Of a stretch of 64,000 bases of DNA, positions 7,650 to 39,256 are shown piece after piece. The notes below the pieces were generated by a model. It searched no databases and was not told the DNA's origin. It saw only the letters and a program-made list of their open reading frames with translations. Source of the stretch: Paramecium tetraurelia (Eukaryota > Ciliophora > Oligohymenophorea > Peniculida > Parameciidae); assembly GCF_000165425.1 (NCBI RefSeq), contig NW_001799006.1, positions 177,710 to 241,709 of the forward strand, read 5' to 3'. The position numbers and the translations under genes were made by a program. The first letter of the stretch is position 1. Each line of letters starts with the position of its first letter.

Positions 7650-9194
7650 TCATTTTTTTGATTTATCTCTAGAACCACTGTGATATGATTATTTTTTGTC
7701 ATATTTCTAATTTTTATATTCTTTTCTGCTCTTTAGTTTGTCCTCTTAGAATTTTTATTTATAACTACTTCTCCATTTCTTTTATTTTTTTTCTCTTTTA
7801 GAACATGAATATTTTTTTTCTTTACTTTATTTGTTATTAAGCATTTCCTTTTTTTTTGATGAGGAAATAACAGACTTATTACTAGAATTGCTAGAACTAT
7901 TTGAACTATTAGAGCTACTTGAACTACTTGAACTGCTGGAGCTGCTTCTAGAATATTTTCGTTTTTTGAATTAATTCTTATTATTTTTATTTAATAGTGT
8001 ATTTGAAAGAAGATTATAACATAATTATTTTACAATTGGATGAGTATATTTATTATCACCTTTGATTCCTGGTATCTATCCATTATTAATTTTATCAAAT
8101 AACACTTATGTGGTCTGAAGGATCTGAACAATATTGCTTAGATTATTAGTATTCTTAGCATAATCTTCTTATTTAGTTGTCTCTTTATCTTCCTATTTAG
8201 TTGTTTCTTTATCCTCTTATTTAGATGTTTCTTTATCTTCTTATTTAGATATTTCTTTTACTTCTTGTTTAGACTAACAAAAGTCAGAAGTCTTGATTTG
8301 ATTATTCTGAATTTATTCATCTTTTTTTACAGTTTCTTCTTAATCTCTAAAAATTTCATCAATATCCCATTCATCAGCTGTACTTGATTATTATTTAACT
8401 TCAACTTGCATTTGTCCAATGGGAAAGGTTTGACAGATGGCTTTTGCAATGCTATGTTGAATTTTGAATCCCTCATACAATTCAAAAGATGGAAAATCAT
8501 AAATAGTTTTGATGGATGACTATCTTCTTAGCCATTGAATTTTAAAGGTCTTAAGTTTAGGGAATTATTAATCATATACGACAAGTTGATTGATCATTTT
8601 AGCACAACCAACAAATTCATCATTATTAATAAAAATCAAAATAACATTTGCAGGGATATTGCATTCTTGCGCTAATTTAAAGTACGTGATTTCTTTGACT
8701 GTCCAAACTGAGAATCTTTTGGCATGAGCTAAATTATTTTTATTTGATTTCATGAGGTAGAAGACAGAATTGAATGTAATGAATTCATTACAGGGAGGCT
8801 CTGGTACAAATGTTTGAAATGATTCTGTGTATTTATAATGACATTGGGAATTGATATTGAAGAAACATTTGGATTTCTGACAAAATATATTCTCACAAGT
8901 GGAGCAGATGAATTTTTAACAACAAGGAGTTGAAATTTCAAAATCTCTAGAGAAACAGGAAAGACATATATTTCTTCTTTTTGGAACTCGAACTAATATT
9001 ATCATTTGCTTGTTTCTAATTTCATCACTAATATTCAAAATCTTTTCTTCATAAAGCATTTGGATATCGTCTTTCTTGGATGTGAACATTTATTCAATTT
9101 TGACTCTTAGGTCTCTTACTTAGATTTTGATTCCTTAAATTGGTATAGTTTAGACTTCTGAGCTGTTTTCCCATTTAAAAGTTATTGAATTCAT
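7650..9194 (-). CDS. YTH-domain (m6A-reader-like) RNA-binding protein with Cys cluster and SR-like tail
   Basis: Single exon, 514 aa. Residues ~144-265 look like a YTH domain: FYLMKSNKNNLAHAKRFSVW (compare the YTHDC1 pattern FxIKSxxxxNxxxAxxxGVW), then VILIFINNDEFVGCAKM and FKIQWLRR, then the basic helix and SIAKAICQTFP. The first aromatic-cage Trp is W164. The position of the second cage Trp, normally just before the FKIxW strand, has no Trp in the short loop INQLVVYDQQFPKLKT, so methyl-A binding may be weak or different. Residues 77-118 hold a zinc-knuckle-like cluster (CLSC...CC...CSTC...C...C). An acidic linker carries four copies of a KEDKET/KQE-type repeat, followed by a poly-Ser/Arg-Ser block and a Lys/Arg-rich end, as in nuclear splicing factors. 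YTH proteins read N6-methyladenosine in RNA; here that role is inferred. Confidence 0.75.
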
Positions 9195-9289
9195 TTTAAA
9201 TTAATTATTAGGTAATTATTCAATTTTATTTGAATTAAATAAATGAAAAAAATGTATGTAATATTTTGTACAACACCTTTGAAATATAA

Positions 9290-10917
9290 TCAATTATAAA
9301 TAAAATTGAAAGAACGTTTTTCTGTCATACCTACTGATGGACTCTTGACAGAGTTGAAACTCTTTTCGCTTGGAATGAAACTAGGATGAACAGTCAATTA
9401 GTGAGGATTCTTTTTCTAAGATAAACCTCTACTAGATTCAAAACTATAAGATGATTGTCTTTCTTTAGATAGTGTAGGTTATCTTTCTTTGGAATGAGTG
9501 GTGGTGTGTCGTTCATTTTTGGTAAGAATTCTATCAACTTTAAAAAACTGAGGTTCTCTTTGTTTGGCTTAAGCATTTGTAGTAGTGAAATAACTAGGTT
9601 TTGGAATGATAGCCTAAGTTAAGAATATGAATACTTTAGTATTATTTTATTTGGAGTTGTTTTTAAGATGAGAGAAATCAAAATAAAACTGTTGCTTAAT
9701 CTAACTAGTAGGAGTAATATAGGACATATTTTTGGTGATTGTATTGAGATCTTCAATTAAATCTTCAGGCAATTTATGTTTCTTCTTGAGTTCTTCTGTT
9801 TCCAAATTTTATTGATATTTTTTAAACCATGGATAATTCAGCAATTCCACAACAGTTGGTCTTTCATCTGGATCAATGGTCAACATCCCATACAATAATG
9901 CAATAGCTTCTTTGGATATATCATGAATGATGGTAAATTCTCCTGATTGGATTCTACTATACAATTCTTAATCAGTGTCCCCTTTAAATGGAAATACTCC
10001 TTAGAGCATAGTGAATAGCACAACTCCTAATGCCCAGACATCTGACTTGTCTCCTCTGTATTCTTATCTTGTAACTATTTCTGGAGCCATGTAACTTGGA
10101 GTGCCACAAAACATTTTGACTTTCTTATCAATGGGAAAAGAAGTTGAAAATCCAAAATCTATCAATTTAGGAGTAAGTCCGTCTAACAAGATATTTTCTA
10201 ATTTGATGTCTCTATGTGCAATGTTCTTGGAATGACAATATTGAATTGCATCTAGAATTTATTTGAATATTCCTTTGGCAATTTCCTCTTCCAATCTTCG
10301 TTCCTAAGATTAGAATTAATGTGTACCGGTTACTTTCTAACCAAATGGTGTAATGAACTACCGCTAACGTATTCCAATATTATATTCACATGGTTATTTG
10401 ATTCCACTGTGTCTAGGATCTTAACAATATTCGGATGATCTAATTTCTCCAATATTTCAATTTCTCTTCTCACTCCTTTCCTCCTCTGCAAATCTTTAAT
10501 CTTAGTTTTTTCATATATTTTTATTGCCACTTTTGTATCACTCTCTATTTGGATAGCAACTCTCACTGCAGCATATGCACCTTGACCTATTCGACTACCC
10601 ACCTTATATTATGCCTTGAATTATTCAGTTTTATTTGTATCATCGTCTGGTTGATTGATTAAGAACTTCACTCGATCACAAATGTTCTGTTGCTTGAAAT
10701 CAAATTTGAAGTATTCAACATTGTCTCGTTTCTCTACTTTACAAAATTTCGATTGTAGAATTTAACTAATTGCATCTAAATTCTTCAGTTGTTGATTCTT
10801 CAGGTTCATCAGTAATTCCTATTGCAAGGGTGGTCTGGACTTGAGGGCATATTGATTCCCAATGTATTTCTCGTTCTCCTTTTGATTTAAACTATTAGTT
10901 GCAGCTCTATGCTTCAT
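9290..10917 (-). CDS. Ser/Thr protein kinase, CAMK/SNF1-MARK type
   Basis: 527 aa after removing introns at 10304-10326 (23 nt) and 9614-9634 (21 nt, in phase and without TGA, so less certain). A ~105-residue N-terminal extension precedes the kinase domain: VGSRIGQGAYAAVRVA (P-loop), VAIKIYEK (VAIK lysine), [45 protein letters not shown] (catalytic loop, Asp intact), LIDFGFS (DFG), CGTPSYMAPEIV, SDVWALGVVLF and an RPTVVELLNYPWF end. All catalytic residues are present, so it should be active. The ~190-residue Ser/Lys-rich C-terminal tail has no recognisable domain. Only ~95 bp separate it from the YTH gene on the same strand. Substrate unknown. Confidence 0.9.
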
Positions 10918-18065: not shown

Positions 18066-19564
18066 ATGCAATAATAATATTCTAATAGTTCAATATAGGA
18101 TTTCAATATACTTGAGAAATTGGGAGAAGGCTCATTCTCTTCTGTGTATAAGGTATGATGAGAATTGATACCTTTAGGTCTAAAGAAAATCGGATGGTCA
18201 ATATTATGCAATGAAGAAAGTGAATATTTCGCAATAGAGTTTGAAAGAGAGAGAAAATGCTTTGAATGAGATCAGAATATTAGCCTCACTAGATTCTCCA
18301 TATATAGTAGAATTTAAGGATGCTTTTATTGATTAAGATGGAAGAATTCTTTATGTTATTATGGAGTTTGCATCTGGAGGAGACTTAAATCAAATTTTAA
18401 AGTAAGGAAAATTGTAGGGTGGAGTTTAGGAGGGTGAAATTTGGAATATATTAACATAGATCACACTTGGAGTGAAAATATTGCATGACAATGGCATTTT
18501 ACATAGAGACCTCAAATCAGCCAATGTATTTGTGTCCAAGACTCCTTAAGGAAACATTTATAAGATAGGAGATTTAAACATCAGTAAGGTAACTCATGGG
18601 GCAAATGCAAAGACCTAGACAGGAACTCCATGTATAGATATCAATATTTATATTAGATTATGCTGCGCCTGAAATCTGGAAGGGTGAATAATATTCATGG
18701 CCTTGTGATATTTGGTCAATTGGTTGTATTATCTATGAGTTAGCTACATTTCAACCTCCTTTCAGAGCAGGAGACCTTCTATCATTAAATAAGAAGATTT
18801 AAGCAGGTTATTATGATCCTATGCCACAAAAATACAGTTCAGATCTATCCGATGTTTTAAAGACTCTTTTACAAGTTGATCCAAAGAGTAGACCAAATTG
18901 TGACTAAATTCTTAAGAATCCAAAGGTCATTAAGAATAGTGGATCGTTATTGGTGGAAGTGGAGTAGAATGGTGTTAAGTAAGCCAAATTATTATAAACT
19001 ATCAAACTCCCTTTTAATCTAAAGTAACTGAAGGATAATTTACCAAAATCCAAATATGAAAATAAGATGAAGAGATCAAACTCATAATAAGGACTTAAAA
19101 TTGAGACTGACCATCCAATATCTTAATAACCTCGAATTAACATGGAAATATAATAACAATAATAATAACAATAATAATAATTAAGAAAAAAATTGATCAG
19201 CGTCCCATCATAAGGTGCTCCATTAAAATGCAAACCTCCTTTGGCTAAACCTCAAATTGCCTAAGCTTAAAAAATAGAATACCATCCTTAGACTCCATAA
19301 TATTACGGATAAAAAATGTACCATCAGGATCAAAAACAGCAGTAATTAAATATTGTTAATTAAAGAATCAATGCATAATAATATTGTAAGCCAACATTTT
19401 TGAAACAGAATTACGGAATTCGAGACAATTCCCCTAGGAATCAAAATAATCCTTATTTACAATAAAGAGTAGGACAATAGCCTCAATATAATGCTGGAAA
19501 GTAAGTACAACAAAAGAGACAGTACAGTGCAGGAATTTATGGAAGATAATAAATATATAAATGA
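18066..19564 (+). CDS. NIMA-related protein kinase (NEK) with DLN in place of DFG
   Basis: 482 aa after introns at 18153-18177 and 18632-18656 (25 nt each). N-terminal kinase domain: DFNILEKLGEGSFSSVYKV, YYAMKKVNI, NEIRILASLDSPYIV, MEFASGGDLNQIL, GILHRDLKSANVFV (HRD and K intact), then IGDLNISK where most kinases have DFG, TGTPYYAAPEIWKG, and LLQVDPKSRPNCDQIL. The pattern LDSPYIV...F...GGDLN...GTPYYAAPEIW is typical of NEKs, which act on centrioles, cilia and mitosis. The metal-binding Asp is kept and only Phe-Gly is changed to Leu-Asn; a DLN form is, as I recall, common in a ciliate NEK subgroup. The C-terminal ~200 residues are Gln/Pro-rich with a pure glutamine run. The convergent neighbour ends 20 bp away. 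Confidence 0.88.
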
Positions 19565-22323: not shown

Positions 22324-22440
22324 ATTTTTTATGAAAAAATGTAAAATTCTCCAGTTAACTGATCAATGCTCATTTTAATCGTTGATAATTTGATTTTAAT
22401 GATTTAAGCAAATAAAAATTTAATAGAAATATGTAACATA

Positions 22441-25400
22441 ATGATGACTTTGATTTTCAAGGTGGCAACTAACCATAAAGTATGTTTGAATATTATTTAA
22501 GTTGAACAAGACTAAAAGGATATTAAAATACAAGAGCTTAATGATGATGATGATCCAGTATTTATGATTTTGTTGGAAGAATCAAATATCACTGATTTAG
22601 AATATGCTATACTGCTAGATGATTTATTATTTTTCAAAAGAGAAGCAAGGCTCTACAATTATATTGCCTACTTATTCTAATTGACAGAGATAGACAAATA
22701 AAGTAGACTATTCAAAATATATTATTATTAGATGCTCCTGAGCATATTGGCTAGTTAACTAAGTTATTGAAATTGCTCTTTTAGATTCATGAGATTGGAT
22801 AACATTCAGAATACACTTAAATAATAGAATAACAACATCCTTTTGGATTGTTTATAAATAGTGATCTATCTATGATAGATTTATTGAAGAATATAATTTT
22901 AAATCAAGAAATCAATAAAAAAAAAGATGATATATTCTTTTAAATCAGAATTTATTTGCCAAGATTTTTAATATTTTCAATTAATCCTCCTAAACCATTT
23001 GTAAGTAAAAACTAAATGAAATCATTACAAAACTAGATCATTAGTAAAATCAATAATTAAGTATTTGAAACTAATAATGTGACACCATGTTAATTAGATT
23101 TGTTGGCCTTTTCTTATATTTCTGATTCCAAGTTAAATGATTAATTGTACAATGAAATAATTTTTCTCCTGAAATCAACACTTGATAGGTATATAATATA
23201 TTTAAATTATTTAGTCTTTTGGAAGCCAATAGTGCAGAACAAGGTTATAATCAAAAAATCAAAAATCTATTGGAATTTTTCTTGGTATTCACAACAAACG
23301 AAAAAATCTTGTAATCCTTTCACTAAATTACTTTTCACACTACCCTCTATAATAGTATCAAAAATAGTTTTTCTGCCTATGGAATTGATAATCAACCCAG
23401 TTGGTTCTAAGACCCTTTGATTATAGACTATATGGTAAACTTAATTACCAGAATTCTTAGTTCTTATTAGGATAATTAATAGTTCACTGATATATTGTAT
23501 GAGGATTTCATAAATTGTTTGAAACACAAAGAATTGGATCTGATAACCAAAGTGATCATACCTATTTTGAATAGTCAACAAGCGCCATTAGTACTTGTAT
23601 GCTTCCACCCAAAAGTAAGTGTGTAAGAGAGAAAATTACAAAGTGAACTTTTTTTAGAAAACTATTCTAAAATGATGGAGGATAGTTTAATCGAGTAGAA
23701 TGTTCAGTCATTGGAAAAGAACTATTATAAAAAATTGAATTACTATTATTCTCAATTGAGAATGTAGCCAATTCATTTTATTCCAAAAACAGAAACATTA
23801 ACATAATTGAGATAATTATATGATGAAAACATAAACATTACAAATTTGAGAGAGGGTTCAATTAATGATATAGAGGTGATTAACCCTGTTACTAAGATAC
23901 TTTATCTTAACAGTAATTATTAGAAGTCATTACTGGTTTCTTTTGGAAAATCGATGGGAGGCTTTTTAAGGTTATTTGATGAGATTAAATTGTATTTAGG
24001 AGAAGATAATGTAGAGGTTAAGGAATTATTGAATGAATTGTAAATTTTTTGTTAGATTGAGGAATTTCAAGAGGATATTGTATAACTTGAGGAATTCTAA
24101 AAATATTTAATTTCATTAGTTGAAATGAACAAGAATAAAGATATTACAGAGATATATGAAAAGCTCAATTCGATGATTTATTAAAAATTAGATCAATTTT
24201 TTAAAGAAAAACCATATCTAAAATTCATAGCTATATTGAAATATCGAATCTTTGAGTAGATAGTGATTACTGCAGAAAAATAATTGAATTATATTAATAA
24301 GAATTAGAGGATGGATTCTGGAAATCCTAAAGATGTTGGGAATGGAAAAGATTAATAATTCTAATAATTCAAGTAGAATTAAAATTATAAAAAAGCGAAA
24401 TTTGAAAATATATTAAACTGTATACTTCAATTATTAGATCAGCCAGTTAGCATAAAAATACTTTAGCGCATATAATCATCGGATGTTATAAAATTTGTCA
24501 TTAAATATTTATAAAGTATCAATTTAACATCATCAAAAAGTTAAAAAACACTTGGTCAAATAGTAAAGTTAATCTATTGTTTAGCATAAAGTGAGATGAC
24601 ATTGAAGTTATTCATATCAAATGAGAATATATGTTTATTTAGATAAATGGAGTCATTTAATAATAAACTAATAATGCGTTTATAAGCAGGCAGTTATATA
24701 TTAAATACCCATAAAGAATTTATGTAATTGTATCAATATGTGGAAGCTAGTTTATATGCTGCACGATTAATTAATATAAAATTTTTAGATTTAGACCATA
24801 AACATAAAGAGGATGCTAAATTGAGTAAGCTTTAATTGTATAGTACCTTTATGAAAATATTGGCAGTTGGAAAGTGTGAAATAAAGACTGATGCGAAATA
24901 CTTGTCTAATATGAAAGAGTATTATCAATAAACTAAAAGTCGATCAGAATATAAAATTTAAAAATTTTTGAATCAGATATCAACTATTGAATAGAACATA
25001 CCCATTTAAGCAACTAATTCCATATTCATAAGACATGATAATGCTAGAATGGATTGTATGAGAATCGTAATTTTTGGTGGCAGTGGTACACCTTATGCGC
25101 ATGGAGCATTCTTGTACGACCTATATTTTGGAAATGATTATCCAGTTAGACCTCCAAAGATTAAATTGGCAACTCCTCGACACGATAAAGTAGGATTTAA
25201 TCCCAATTTATATAATTTTCGAAGAGTTTGGTTAGATTTACTTGGTACATGGGATGATAGTTGGAACGTTGATTACTCCACAATATTAGAAAAATTATTT
25301 TCGGTTAAATCTCTAGTGATGAGTGAAAATTTTATGATTAATAAACCGGAATCTTAGATGGAAACTCTTAATGTCGGATAAGCTAATAGAGGATATTGCA

Positions 25401-28400
25401 ATTTCATTAAGATTAATAATATTAGATATGCGATGATAGAATAATTACAAAATCCACCCAGAGGATTTGAAGAAGTAATAAAGAAGGGTTTCTATTTGCG
25501 TAAGGAATTGATAATGAAGGAGATTGAATTATGGATAGAATAGGCCGATTTGCCAGCAACTTACAATCAAATTTAGAATGAGTAGACTTACAACTTACAA
25601 CCTTCATTCTATAAATAAGACTTGATAAAAATATATGAGGAACTGAAAGTGGAATTAGAGAAGTTGAAGTTCGATATTGAAACAGATTTCCAAGTTAATC
25701 AAAGGAAGAAAGAAATCAGTTTGAATTTCGAAACTCCTTATTCATAATAAGAATAAAAAACTAAAAAACAGATGCTCATGCCTTAAGGTTTGAATATAAA
25801 TGAGATTGATGTCAATTATAATGAAAATGTATAATAAAGACAATTCGATTTAAATGATAAGAATCTACAAAATTTGATGAGTAGATACATTGCAGTTGTG
25901 GGTCTAGATGCAGTCAAGAAGCAAAGCGAATCTACTATTTTTATTCACACTTTGAATGGTTTAGGCATTGAAATAGCTAAAAATTTAATTTTATCAGGTG
26001 TAAAAAGATTGATCCTGTTTGATTCGGAACTAGCTTAGATGAGTGATTTAGGTAGCAACTTTTATTTAACAGAACAAGATTTGAAAAAGAGAAGAGATTT
26101 GAGTGTTTTAAATAAATTGAGACATTTAAATCCATATGTCTAAATAGATGTTCTCTAAAATAGTCTGGATGAATTGAATTTGGATGAAATTTAAGTATTT
26201 GTCACATAGGATCCAGATATTGCAAGTAAGGTATCAACTAATAATAAACTTGCAGTTATTTTGGCATAAACAAGAAACATTTTTGCTAGAATTGTAACAG
26301 ATTTTGGAGATGAATTTATAGTGGAAGACAAAGATGGTGAATAATCGTCAGAAGTCAATATTGAGAATATATCTAATAATGTTGTAACTTTGTTTAAGAA
26401 TCAAAATCATAATCTAAGTGAAAATGACTTAGTAATTATTAAAGAGGTCAACTAAGAATAAGGCATTGGAGAGAGTTACAATTAAGTATTCAAAATAAAG
26501 AATGTTAAAACATAATCATTTGAATTAGAAACCAATAGAGTATTTAATAAGTATGTTAGTCATGGTATAGCTTATCAATAGAAATAACCTATTAGGCTGT
26601 AATTTGATCGAATTTAAAAGGCGATTAGTTCATTCAATCATTATTGTGATAATGTTGGAATTTTTGATGGAATTGATTTAATAAAAAGAGATATCATTCA
26701 TTTCTGTTTGAATACTATTGCAAAAGATTAATTGACACATAATTGGGACATCGAAAAAATCAAAATGTTTATAACATCAATGAGATTATCAGATCTAAAC
26801 TAAAAACTATATTTTAAATACAACGAATGCGTGCTTACTAAATATCAAGAAGAGTTGTTACCTTTATTTACATTATTGTCAATGAATACATAATTCTAGC
26901 CATTATGCGCATTAGTAGGTGGAATGGCAGCATAAGAAGTTTTGAAAGCCATAAATAAAAAATATTCTCCAATCCATTAAGTTTATGTCTAATCATTTGA
27001 AGATGTACTTCCATTTAAACTGACAGAATTCAACTTTGTTTAAGTTAGTCAACCTAACAATCTTGAAATTAATTTAAAAAAATATGAAGAATGCATGTCG
27101 AAATTAGGATTCTAATAGAATTAAAATACAAGATATACCGATTTGGCTAACACTATAGGAAATATCAACTAAATATTTAATGCTGATGTGTTTGTCGTAG
27201 GTGCTGGAGCCATAGGGTGTGAATTACTTAAGAATTTTGCAATGTTAGGTGTTAGTAAAAATGGGAAAATATATGTAACTGATCCAGACATCATTAAAAA
27301 CTCAAATCTAGGTCGTTAATTCCTTTTTAGAGAAAAGCACATTAGGAAACCTAAAAGTGTGACAGCAGCTGCCGTTGTCAAATATATGAATCCAGATATC
27401 AATATAGTAGCAAGATAAGATAAAGTATGCCCAGAAACTCAAGATATCTATCATACTAACTTTTACAATTAAATGAAATGTATGACTACTGCATTGGATA
27501 ACGTATAGACTAGATTGTTTATGGATTCTAAATGTATTGAGAATGGAGTGCCATTAATTGAAAGTGGTACTTTTGGATCAAAAGGACATGTACAATCCAT
27601 CATACCTTATATATAAACTGAAAGATATGTAAAAAAATAAGATCCTGAAGAAATCAATGACATACCATATTGCACTTTGAAAATGTTTCCAGAATCTAAT
27701 ATCCATTGTTTAGAATGGGCCCGTGACAAGTTTGAATAGTACTTCTTTAGAAAACCATAAGCTTTGTTTTAATTAATATAGGATCCCTCTCCATTATAAT
27801 AAACTGTAGAAATGGCCATTAAAGTGTTAAACAAATATCCTACCTCTTTTTAAGAATGTGTGATAATGGGAAGATTAAAATTCCAGAAATTATTCAATCA
27901 GGATATAATAACTTTGACGAGTGCTTTTCCATTAAATTCTGTAACTGAAGAAGGTCAACCTTTTTGGGCTCCTCCTAAGAGATCTCCTCAACCCATTGAA
28001 TTTGGTGAAAAATTTGCATTTGAATTTGTTGAAGATTTTGCTATATTAACTGCATAAATCTACAATATTGCAATTCCCAATTAATATGATTTGAATCTCA
28101 TATTATAGAATGTTCAGATTCACAAGATGGACATAAAATAAAATAAGATTCAATAGATAATTGAGATATAAGATAAAAACAATCAATTATAAAAATAGAT
28201 CGTTATTGAAGTCAAAAATTATGACCAACTTATTTAAGAGGCTAAGTCATTATTAAATAAGGTTTAACCGAAATTGCCATAGCCTCAAAAATTTGAAAAA
28301 GATAATGACACTAATCATCATGTATCTTTCATTAAAAATGCCACTAATGCTAGAGCAATAAATTATGGTATCTAAAGAGTAGATTGGATGTGGACCAAAT

Positions 28401-28887
28401 TAAAAGCAGGAAGAGTAATATAATATTTTATGATCTTTCTCTAGATTATTCCAGCCATGGCAACCACAACATCGTGTATTGCAGCCTTACAGACTTTGGA
28501 ATTGATTAAAATACTACAGAAATCTACTTAATATAGAAATACATTCTTAAATGCTGCCATTCCATTTATGATGCAGAGTCAACCGGGAAAAGCACAAGAA
28601 GTAATTAATTTATTTATTATTATTAGTTCAAATTGAATAATGGTTTAAGTATTTCAATTTGGAAGAAGTTGAATCTCAACATTAAGAAATTGACTGAACC
28701 ATTGCAATACATAGTGTATGAAATTGAAAAGATGGTAGGAGAAGAGATAATTAATCTCCAATAAAGGGGAAAATTGTTCTATATGAAAAAGATGATACCT
28801 AAAGATGAGATAAAAAGATATGAGTATATCAATTCTCCAATTAACAATTGCATAGAGGTAGATTTTAATAATAATTTAGTTTATTGA
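22441..28887 (+). CDS. Giant fusion: helical region + inactive BIRC6/UBE2O-like UBC domain + UBA1-type ubiquitin-activating E1
   Basis: One gene of 2111 aa: introns at 22703-22731 (29 nt), 23189-23214 (26), 28415-28444 (30) and 28601-28626 (26) leave 2112 codons with no internal TGA. Residues 1-840 are helical with no named domain. Residues ~840-960 form a UBC fold of the BIRC6/UBE2O type ([52 protein letters not shown], then [16 protein letters not shown]), with the family's C-terminal helices ([20 protein letters not shown]). The catalytic Cys (K-V-C-L) is Trp912. A linker leads to a full E1 (~1127-2111): first adenylation half ([39 protein letters not shown]), second half ([69 protein letters not shown]), the active-site Cys1726 in [23 protein letters not shown], and a C-terminal UFD-like domain. 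E1s adenylate ubiquitin and pass it to E2s; this one should still do so. A mis-joined pair of genes is unlikely because the frame is continuous across the junction. Confidence 0.9.
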
Positions 28888-29172
28888 TGGTTTATCACAA
28901 ATAAATGTGTAAATAAGTAACAATATTTCGTTTTTAGTGCTAATCACTCTAGTGTGATTTATCTTGATTTTATGATTATATAAGTTATAATATAATCGTT
29001 ATCTTAATTAATTGTTTTGTATCTTCTAAATTATAATGATGATTACACCCAATTTTAGGAATAAAAGAAATTAATATTGAAAGATGGAAGTTTGCAACAA
29101 ATATTTGGAGTAGTCTATAAAATATATAAATAAAATCAAATATAAAATCAATATAAATCTCATAATTAATAT

Positions 29173-35672: not shown

Positions 35673-37378
35673 ATGAAATCAAGCATACAATCATATGGAT
35701 TTCAAATAAGTATTATACGCTTCGGAGATGAAAAAGTATACGAGTACAAATCGATCAACAACAACATAGCAGAGGAGTTTTTGATGTGTGACTTGTTCAT
35801 ACACTCCCCGTATTTGCGACAACATACTAAAATGATTAATAAGGAAAAATTCATATTCAAATTTGAGACTGATAAATTACTTTCATCTCTTCAAACACAA
35901 GATGAAAACTTATTGGTAAAGATAGCACGTATTTTAAATTATTAATAACCATAGGATAGTTGTTAGAAGCAATTTAGATTTTACATTAACACAACATCCC
36001 AGGGAGAACTTTCAATATTAATAATATATTGTGGAATGAAACCTAATAAAAAATCACTCTAATGGAGTTTGGCTTATCCTCTCCACTAATAATCTACCCT
36101 CCAGAATTGCTCAATAAAAAATATCGATGTTATGGAATTGAAATTGATTAATTCTTGATAGGGTGTGTACTTTACCAATTGTATTTTCGAAAACCTTTAG
36201 AATTATAAGAACAACTATTAGATATGAACTTTCGCGATTTAAATATGGAATTATCTAAAATTCGATCACCGCTCATTAAAGAACTCTTGATTGGACTACT
36301 TCAATTTAATTTATCCAAAAGAATGCAATTTAAAGATCTGGCTAGACTCCTTAAGAGCAATCAGGGTATACAAGAATTTTATTCTTAAATTAAAACATTC
36401 AAACCAAAATAGAATATTATTGACTAGAGGATTTTCTTCAGAGAATCAAGATAAGAGAAGAGTTCCACTTACATTCTCACTGATACTGCCTTATAAGAGT
36501 CTTTGATTATTCCACTAGATTAATCTTTAAGCTCTTTTCAATCAACAACATAAGAATCCTTTAAACAAGTAAAGAAATTTTCAATTGTTGAAAACACCTT
36601 GATGGAGTACCAATTTAAATTAGAGGTAAGTAAATTCCAATGTTTCGATGAAGTTATAAGTATTCTGAAAGATTACAACCAAGACATAGTCCCTGAACTA
36701 TGTTTAACAATATTGGCACTTAATTTTGGAAAAGTCTACTTTCACCTATATTTGATTAGAGAACTAGAAATTGAAAATTCTACTTGCTTCTCTAAAGATG
36801 ATCTAGAAATGAAGTTATGGAAATCATATAAAACTTTTAATTCCAAAACAATAAACGATGAAGTTTAAAAATTAAAAACCAATGCAAATATGTTGAAAGT
36901 GTCATTTGATAGGGAAAATGAAATAAAATGCGTTTAATTACAGATTAATAAGAATGAAGTCGATAATTTAGATTTGTTGTAATTATAGTTGTTTAATCTT
37001 TAATACTTCAATAATTCTTTGAGTAATTAGGAACAATCAAACAAATTTCTTGATGCATATCGAACTTAATGTTTGATTCAATTGCAAATAATAAATGAAA
37101 ATCTTGATTTTACAATGAATCTCCAAACAGCTCAAAAACTAAGGTAGGGCTTGATTTTATGCGCATTTGCAGATATCCTCTTTAAACCATAACTTGAATG
37201 TCATAAATATATTTTGGAAACCTTGAATATCAAAGAGATTTCAAATTATCAGCAATTTATTGAATACATTAAACTAGATATCAACTCATTCAATGAATGG
37301 TTCTAGTAGGTGGTTAATTACTTGATGAAGCACGAAATAGGTAGAAAATATATCAACTATTTGAATTTAATATTATGA
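35673..37378 (+). CDS. Pseudokinase, tandem copy 1
   Basis: 559 aa with one 26-nt intron at about 35931-35956. A kinase C-lobe is recognisable at residues ~80-200: LLEAIQILHQHNIPGRTFNI then NNILWNE aligns with the catalytic loop, but HRDxK is GRTFN, so the catalytic Asp and Lys are gone. LMEFGLS replaces DFG (Asp to Glu), and YPPELL replaces APE. IDQFLIGCVLYQLYFRKPLE matches the aF helix (SLGCxxYEL). The N-lobe is short and lacks a P-loop. Downstream ~350 residues are helical with no named domain. The head-to-tail neighbour shares the same altered motifs, so both likely bind partners rather than phosphorylate. Confidence 0.75.
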
Positions 37379-37459
37379 TTAATAAATAATTATAATTTTT
37401 GGGACCTCCGCTTCTATTGATCGAAACTATATTAAAATTATCATATCTCAATTTAAATA

Positions 37460-39256
37460 ATGAATATTAATCAAATTGGGGAGCCATCCAGAATAAAGTC
37501 TTGTACTTTTGATATAAGAGAGGTATCCATTTAAGGTCAAAAATATTTTGCTTATTACAAGAAAAATACGATGAATCAAGACTTAGATGAATATCTAGCT
37601 CTGGATTTAAACTTAGTTCATAATTGCAAGTATCTCAGAAATTACAAAAGGAGTGCAGATGGGCATAATTATAAAGCCTTTGAATATCCTGGGGAATACA
37701 AACTATTAAGAGATCTCATTAAACCCAAAGAAGAAACAATATTGAATATTGTTTCTGATTTAGTGTCTGCTTTAATGATTTTACATTCTAATTCACTTCT
37801 TGGTAGATGTTTCAATATTGATAATATTATTCTGATTAATGGAACGACCCCAATGTTAATGGAATTTGGATACTATCCAAAAATGGATTACAAAGTGCCT
37901 GAATAAGTAATCAGCACTCAACTGAATGAGAAGGTAGACTTGTTCTTGCTAGGTAGAGTGATCTATTATCTAACTGTTGGTAAAGAGTTGCCAAATTACA
38001 CTCTTAATAATTTTGGTGAAAATGAAGATAAAATTAATCTTGCTATTGCAGAAACAAACTACTCTTAAAAATTAAAAATATTTATTTAAGGACTACTCTA
38101 AAAAAATAGATCTTAAAGAACTGATTATTTAAAATTGGTTTAGATGTTTGATACTCCAAACAGTTCAATATTGTTGAGTTTTTATTAGAATGAGTTTTAG
38201 AATTGCAATATAATAATCAATGAGCAATTATAAGCAAGATAAAACCAAGATGTTGAAATTGAAGAAATAGTTCCATTTATTATTGTCCCTATTATTAATC
38301 CTAACAAAATTAAAGGACCTTATGTTTAATAAAGATAAAAACCTAATATTATAGGAGATAATTTAGAACCACCGGAATCGCCATCCTTTTTAGGTGATGA
38401 AGACAATTTCAATCCTCCTATTTTAAATACATAGCACCCATTAATTAATTGTTTTGAGGTGGATTCAGAAGAAATTAATAGAGAGCTATAAAATATATTA
38501 CCATTTTATATTGAGTCTTTTGATCAATAATCAATCTGGAATAATATATTCTTTTCTTTATATCGTTTTGGTTTGGTGAAAAAATTGAATGAGATGATCA
38601 AAAATTTTAAAAGATTAAGTGATGATTTAACTTTATGGAAGACCAGCTTTGCCTTAAGTAAAATACATATAGTTTTGCAAATAGAATTTATTAATGACTT
38701 AAATTAGGACAAAAATGTATTTGGTATACACTAAGGCGATTGGGTTTAATTTATTTCTAAGAATAAAGATTATAAAATAATGAAACACAAATTGCAATAT
38801 GAATTGGAAAAAGATCAGAAACTCTTCATTGGTCTTACATTCTCTTAATTATACAAAGGATATTCAATATTTAGATAAAATCCACCATAAAATGATCATT
38901 TTTTAAACAATGTAATTATAATACTAAAATAATAGAATTTGCAATACGAGACTTTTGAAGAATATAAATTAGCATATAGAGGAATTTTAAGTGAATCTTT
39001 AGCATTCTTTGAAAAATGTTAGGGAAGAGAGTATTCTTTAATTAAATTATTTCTTCTAATATGCCTGAAAATAAACAACATATGTGACATAGACGCAATT
39101 TAAGAAAATTTTAAATATGTGGGGCAAGTCTTAAATTTACCATAAGTTAGTTCAATTAAAGAAATAGAATACTTTTTCAAAAATAAAAGTGAAACTAATT
39201 TTGATGAATTTTATAACATAATAAAAAGTAAATTCTTTGCTTAAAATCAATAATGA
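37460..39256 (+). CDS. Pseudokinase, tandem copy 2
   Basis: 598 aa, intron-free, 81 bp after copy 1. The same layout as copy 1: ALMILHSNSLLGRCFNIDNI aligns with the catalytic loop (HRDxK replaced by GRCFN), LMEFGYYP sits at the DFG position, and YKVPEQ at the APE position, then DLFLLGRVIYYLTVGKELPN as the aF-helix region. The long helical C-terminal region includes an acidic/Pro-rich linker (PPESPSFLGDEDNFNPP). Sequence identity to copy 1 is low outside the motifs, so the duplication is old. The gene lacks the 26-nt intron of copy 1, whose position falls just before the LHxxN motif. Role unknown; a signalling scaffold is inferred. Confidence 0.75.

Follow-up and report, generated by a model that had tools for sequence, protein, structure and literature searches.

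The ubiquitin-activating enzymes (E1) and the ubiquitin-conjugating ones (E2) are described as separate proteins, which meet momentarily. One of the E1s, UBA6, activates ubiquitin and FAT10 and loads UBE2Z; canonically it is a single chain with an inactive adenylation half (IAD), FCCH, an active adenylation half (AAD), SCCH and UFD. Cap2, a protein of the bacterial CBASS operon, has a single adenylation half and neither SCCH nor FCCH. We here describe a gene of Paramecium tetraurelia in which a UBC domain similar to that of BIRC6 is followed, in the same reading frame, by a two-half E1. It lies on the plus strand at 22441-28957 of a window of 64,000 nucleotides, i.e., the whole stretch of DNA that was analysed, on contig C53 of a 69-Mb genome.

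Human UBA6 and BIRC6 are an E1-E2 pair, as seen in the cryo-electron microscopy entries 9qgw, 9qhi and 9qim. UBA6 is seemingly more efficient than UBA1 at loading BIRC6 (PMC4705383), LC3 is ubiquitinated by UBA6 and BIRC6 together (PMC6863627), and human BIRC6 is an antiparallel dimer (PMC10827748). In the literature found, the term “E1-E2 fusion” refers to bacterial Cap2 (e.g., section 28 of PMC12355090), which that review presents as a type II CBASS protein whose E2-like domain is combined with an ATG7-like wing and an adenylation domain. No eukaryotic E2-E1 fusion was found in the literature, subscription papers and preprints being outside that search. Like Cap2, the Paramecium gene has its E2 N-terminal to the E1 in one polypeptide. 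Unlike the bacterial protein, it has a BIRC6-like E2, its UBA6-like E1 possesses two halves as well as FCCH, SCCH and a UFD-like end, and it resides in a genome with code 6 and short introns. There is also a resemblance to UBA6-BIRC6: in the fusion family, too, a BIRC6-type UBC follows a putative armadillo-like arm, and the E1 groups with UBA6. Humans, however, have two proteins instead of one chain, the fusion is without a detected BIR domain, and the copy in the window is without the UBC cysteine. Because UBA6 and BIRC6 are a known E1-E2 pair, the gene looks like this pair in one chain. Our preferred reading, which we consider probable with some reserve, is that it is a member of a ciliate family whose BIRC6-like E2 and ubiquitin ligase (E3) has been extended at the C-terminus by a UBA6-type E1, and that it works as proposed below.

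The gene fusion itself is real and repeated: it is contained in one reading frame and is found at seven loci. In the window, a single open frame (23186-28636, 1816 codons in genetic code 6, where TAA and TAG mean Gln) encodes the UBC and both halves of a ubiquitin-type E1. Pfam recognises UQ_con (44.5 bits, residues 618-705), ThiF (219), UBA_E1_SCCH (198) and E1_FCCH (46.5) in its product, and a sequence search of the PDB yields E values of 4.8e-136 for the E1 part and of 1.9e-42 to BIRC6 for the UBC part. The stretch of 1134 codons from UBC to active adenylation half does not contain a single in-frame TGA; the five alternative frames have 14-53 of them. The first-pass annotation had postulated one gene with a UBC followed by a two-half E1, and the frame, the Pfam and PDB matches and the missing TGA bear it out.

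Alternatively, a UBC gene and an E1 gene could lie next to each other, be transcribed separately and be joined on paper only. This is extremely unlikely. The junction is free of introns, stops and in-frame gaps in five of the seven copies, and the order is kept at all seven loci. The linker between UBC and E1 (25490-25880), which contains neither intron nor stop, is 70% identical to that of the paralogue C61 and 58% to that of C45; its dN/dS stays below 0.2 in three pairwise comparisons (0.16 for the window copy versus C61, 0.14 versus C45, overall range 0.07-0.16), with dS near saturation in both comparisons that involve C45. The seven loci, the open frame and the constraint on the linker likewise reject an assembly chimera or two artificially joined genes. 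An assembly error had been named beforehand as what would overturn the fusion; it is ruled out, as the seven loci lie on seven contigs and share the same order.

Judged from ThiF matches, the genome contains ten loci with both ubiquitin-type E1 halves. Seven of them show the order UBC-linker-E1: C53 (the window), C61, C45, C154, C64, C114 and C162. In these seven, some 0.5-0.6 kb separate the end of the UBC match from the first E1 match downstream of it on that strand; five have a frame that is open all the way between UBC and active adenylation half, and in-frame TGA is absent from all four paralogues tested (C61, C45, C154 and C64). The window gene is thus no isolated case, and its six paralogues all retain the UBC cysteine. 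Some members are giants, with frames of 4337 codons in C64 and 4687 in C114. UBA domains and RanBP-type zinc fingers are ubiquitin-binding folds; C114 has a UBA domain and then such a zinc finger near its N-terminus (L021 31-9900), and in C64 both are found in the frame just upstream (L027 6580-8811), the zinc finger scoring below the Pfam cut-off. C114 has a break of its frame within SCCH (L009 near 6490), and in C162 (L011, L023), which is piecewise 78-96% identical to C114, the frame is broken many times; either decay or assembly error may account for this. The window gene and C61 have several neighbours in common on both sides. Because the surroundings of C61 are collinear and C45 shares a few neighbours upstream, the window gene, C61 and C45 are duplicates of different ages. 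Viral or prokaryotic relatives were not found in viral contigs or genome contigs with six short back-translated patterns per scan, from which ciliate Gln codons (TAA/TAG) could hide matches.

The remaining three E1 loci, C202, C196 and C63, lack a UBC. A count of further E1 genes had been called for; C202 and C196 keep the catalytic cysteine and group with UBA1. These stand-alone enzymes share the canonical E1 halves and the catalytic cysteine with the fusions, yet they differ in having no upstream UBC, another position in the tree and no lysine at the positions of UBA6 residues 644, 652, 706, 709 and 800. The third one (C63:181000-190000, minus strand) has a serine in the column of the catalytic cysteine and a long branch (1.41); from its sequence it is a probable pseudo-E1.

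The UBC of the window copy, together with its N- and C-terminal extensions, spans 24806-25552 (Pfam core 25037-25300). It is closest to human BIRC6, with 150.8 bits and an E value of 5e-43 to 3ceg over query residues 7-245. A BIRC6/UBE2O-like UBC had been suggested at first. The BIRC6 type stands; the UBE2O type is rejected, since it reaches 65.9 bits at best, about 85 bits below BIRC6. UBE2O and UBE2Z, both class IV E2s, resemble the window UBC in having an extended UBC related to BIRC6, but their match to it is far weaker than that of BIRC6 (E about 1e-17 versus 5e-43).

What the first description had overlooked is that the catalytic cysteine of this UBC is missing. In the alignment to BIRC6 its position is occupied by TGG for tryptophan (25229-25231), where the six paralogues have TGT. 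The catalytic-site segment reads NPNLYNCGKVCLS in C61, C45 and C154, and close cysteine-bearing variants of it occur in C64, C114 and C162; GKVCLS has become RRVWLD in the window copy, which also lacks two residues after the active-site motif. A single sequencing error is unlikely to have produced the change from Cys to Trp, because the adjoining residues have changed, too. With tryptophan at this position, ubiquitin would not be carried on the window UBC in the usual way, and by its residues the E2 active site of this copy is to be taken as dead.

The E1 half begins with the inactive adenylation half, which includes FCCH (26372-26584) and a stretch aligned to 4HB (25880-27199 by Pfam and alignment). 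The active adenylation half and SCCH follow (27200-28573, interrupted by the intron 28415-28444). The catalytic cysteine, predicted earlier from the motif CTLK, is indeed there and intact: it lies at 27671-27673 within YCTLKMFPE and aligns to C625 of human UBA6. All six fusion rows contain this cysteine and the residues aligned to R508, Q509, D569 and N570 of UBA6. Compared to the canonical domain set of UBA6, everything was detected in the window copy except the UFD.

The first-pass annotation had called this E1 UBA1-type. A tree was built from the active adenylation half together with SCCH. Here, the six fusion rows group with human UBA6 (99/98), and C202, C196 and C63 side with the UBA1 rows. 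When C63 and C162 are taken out, the split between UBA6 and UBA1 stands at 100/99, and the AU (approximately unbiased) test rejects a single Paramecium clade (p 0.0019). The two trees, of 13 and 11 rows, are unrooted and contain no UBA7; C162 entered as one unaltered open frame of 348 amino acids, C196 with 440 amino acids of its 489-aa frame, and C114 was omitted. Independent of the tree is a comparison of the InsP6 pocket in the SCCH of UBA6, the residues of which are named in PMC9391358. All six fusion rows have K644, K706, K709 and K800, and five have K652. Among five UBA1-type rows, K709 is found in one and K644, K652, K706 and K800 in none; C63, counted apart, has none of them. UBA1 orthology of the fusion E1 is thus not favoured by the tree, and the enzyme is better described as UBA6-like.

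Several observations weigh against the preferred reading. The identity of the window E1 to UBA6 (42.4%) hardly differs from that to UBA1s (39.6-41.7%), and bit scores alone do not separate the two. Of the pocket residues, K714, R691, S647 and S648 occur in none of the six fusion rows, Y710 in three. The pairing of UBA6 with BIRC6 is not absolute either, because fly BIRC6 is paired with a UBA1 in entry 9qgg, according to its title. Finally, a codon model with free branches does not exclude an omega of 1. The fusion E1 could, in consequence of the first of these points, be a fast-evolving ciliate duplicate of UBA1, its likeness to UBA6 being due to convergence or to a long-branch effect. The few references and the long stems would suit this explanation. 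We nevertheless consider it unlikely, since the AU test rejects one Paramecium clade, the pocket lysines are shared, and the grouping with UBA6 survives the removal of the long C63 row.

The C-terminus of the window protein (28574-28957) aligns as a UFD-like stretch. A full E1 with a UFD-like end had been claimed; the aligned stretch is in line with the claim, but Pfam does not recognise a UFD in this copy. In C64, the Pfam UFD match is above the cut-off (28 versus 25 bits), and between C61 and C45 the UFD is the least conserved part of the E1 (47.7% identity). A UFD, usually the dock for the E2, that is poorly conserved and escapes Pfam might be expected if tethering lessens the need for it.

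When C45 serves as the outgroup, 247 amino acid changes over 1744 sites are unique to the window copy and 60 to C61. By part, window copy versus C61, these are 98/24 in the arm, 44/6 in the UBC, 20/7 in SCCH, 8/4 in the inactive adenylation part and 18/2 in the active adenylation half. Judged from these counts, the faster change of the window copy is not limited to the UBC but extends to nearly all parts. A codon model with equal branch times (kappa fixed at 1.6, on the premise that C53 and C61 are duplicates in collinear surroundings) yields an omega of 0.156 for the E1 and 0.316 for the UBC of the window copy, as against 0.053 and 0.031 in C61. The difference between UBC and E1 in the window copy is supported (2ΔlnL 16.5), and an omega of 1 is rejected in the E1 (2ΔlnL 711) as well as in the UBC (90). 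Caution is, however, advisable with equal-time omega, since three neighbour frames have a lower dS than the fusion gene (0.15, 0.27 and 0.03, the third perhaps not a real coding frame). The longer matches between neighbours and C61 vary in identity from about 55 to 99.7%, and we make no claim that the window gene outpaces its neighbours. The free-branch model is uninformative because the C45 branch is saturated. Probably, the E1 half is still constrained, and the UBC is more relaxed but not free.

The main rival explanation regards the window copy as a decaying duplicate, in which the E2, the arm and the UFD are already non-functional and the E1 is on the way out. The excess of unique changes, raised in the E1 parts too, is in line with decay, as are the loss of about 260 amino acids of the arm relative to C61, the lost E2 cysteine, the undetected UFD and the free-branch result. 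But a frame of 1816 codons persists without stop or frameshift, the catalytic residues of the E1 are kept, and under equal branch times an omega of 1 is strongly rejected, so that we judge decay rather unlikely. Less likely still, the window copy could act as an inhibitor or sponge: its pseudo-E2 would sit on the E2-docking face of the E1, which stays loaded, while free E2s remain unfed. This would agree with a UBC that is still recognisable despite the lost cysteine and has an equal-time omega below 1; the degenerate UFD speaks against it.

For the cysteine-bearing members of the fusion family, the preferred reading implies a relay, which we infer from the families of the parts. The E1 half would adenylate ubiquitin, take it onto its own cysteine and hand it to the tethered UBC, either in cis or from one partner of a BIRC6-like dimer to the other; substrates held by the arm would then be modified by the UBC. 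The window copy would still activate ubiquitin, yet its own UBC could not accept it, which makes it an E1 with a pseudo-E2 tether. Without transfer to a UBC cysteine of its own, it would either pass ubiquitin to the UBC of a partner or to free E2s, or it would block. That the tether blocks or regulates the E1, as had been proposed, fits the window copy as one of these several options only.

In a wider view, UBA6 and a BIRC6-like E2/E3 may both be old enough to occur in ciliates. There, UBA6 would be found solely at the C-terminal end of BIRC6-like giants, in which one chain unites an E1, an E2 and an E3-like arm that probably binds substrates; the window copy, as an E1 with a pseudo-E2, would be a natural separation-of-function mutant of the ubiquitin relay. 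We see the arguments for this wider view as evenly balanced. UBA6 is stated to be confined to chordates and echinoderms in a 2025 review (PMC12355090), and PMC9391358 confines it to vertebrates and sea urchin. If the E1 tree holds, a UBA6-like E1 is present in ciliates, contrary to both. The fused partners correspond to the special human pair UBA6-BIRC6, and the gene fusion would support this pairing independently, by evolution. A permanent E2-E1 tether further makes the need for a separation of E1 and E2 directly testable.

The stretch ahead of the UBC (23216-24775) was predicted mostly with a ten-residue mean pLDDT of 57-87; for model residues 121-237 and 365-388 this value falls below 50. 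In a structural search with the arm, the top six matches were BIRC6 entries, with an rmsd (root-mean-square deviation) of 6.8-8.3 and low model confidence; the mean pLDDT of the predictions was 55.9 and 47.2, and the fold ranking alone was used. Pfam finds no BIR domain in the scanned frames. Genome-wide, the BIR (PF00653) and BIRC6 (PF12356) families gave no match, but neither did the controls. Because no BIR domain was found, the family is named BIRC6-like only.

The refined model of the window gene comprises six exons (22441-22702, 22732-23188, 23215-28414, 28445-28600, 28627-28857 and 28880-28957) and five introns of 22-30 bases (22703-22731, 23189-23214, 28415-28444, 28601-28626 and 28858-28879), all on the plus strand, and encodes 2127 amino acids, 1287 of which extend from the UBC to the C-terminus. 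Four introns, a stop at 28887 and 2112 amino acids had been proposed; the single gene survives, the details do not. The stop at 28887 drops out of the model because the intron 28858-28879 is removed, and the stop at 28955-28957 follows the C-terminal ITLV, the same as in C61, which also supports the three 3' introns. Two short 5' exons, split by the intron 22703-22731, encode the N-terminal part (22441-23188), which aligns to C61. The start codon is uncertain; an in-frame ATG upstream at 22399 would yield 2141 amino acids. One unbroken exon (23215-28414) encodes the helical arm, the UBC, the linker of about 130 amino acids and most of the E1. Automatic gene models were left out: their introns are doubtful in C114 and C162, and that of the window gene overran the stop.

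At the gathering score, Rfam has no match in the window. Protein kinase frames lie near the gene at 18476-19561, 35906-37375 and 37421-39253, the last one below the Pfam cut-off. On the minus strand, the frame 7653-9437 encodes a YTH-domain protein (Pfam 31.7 bits), which we take to belong to the family of N6-methyladenosine (m6A) readers.
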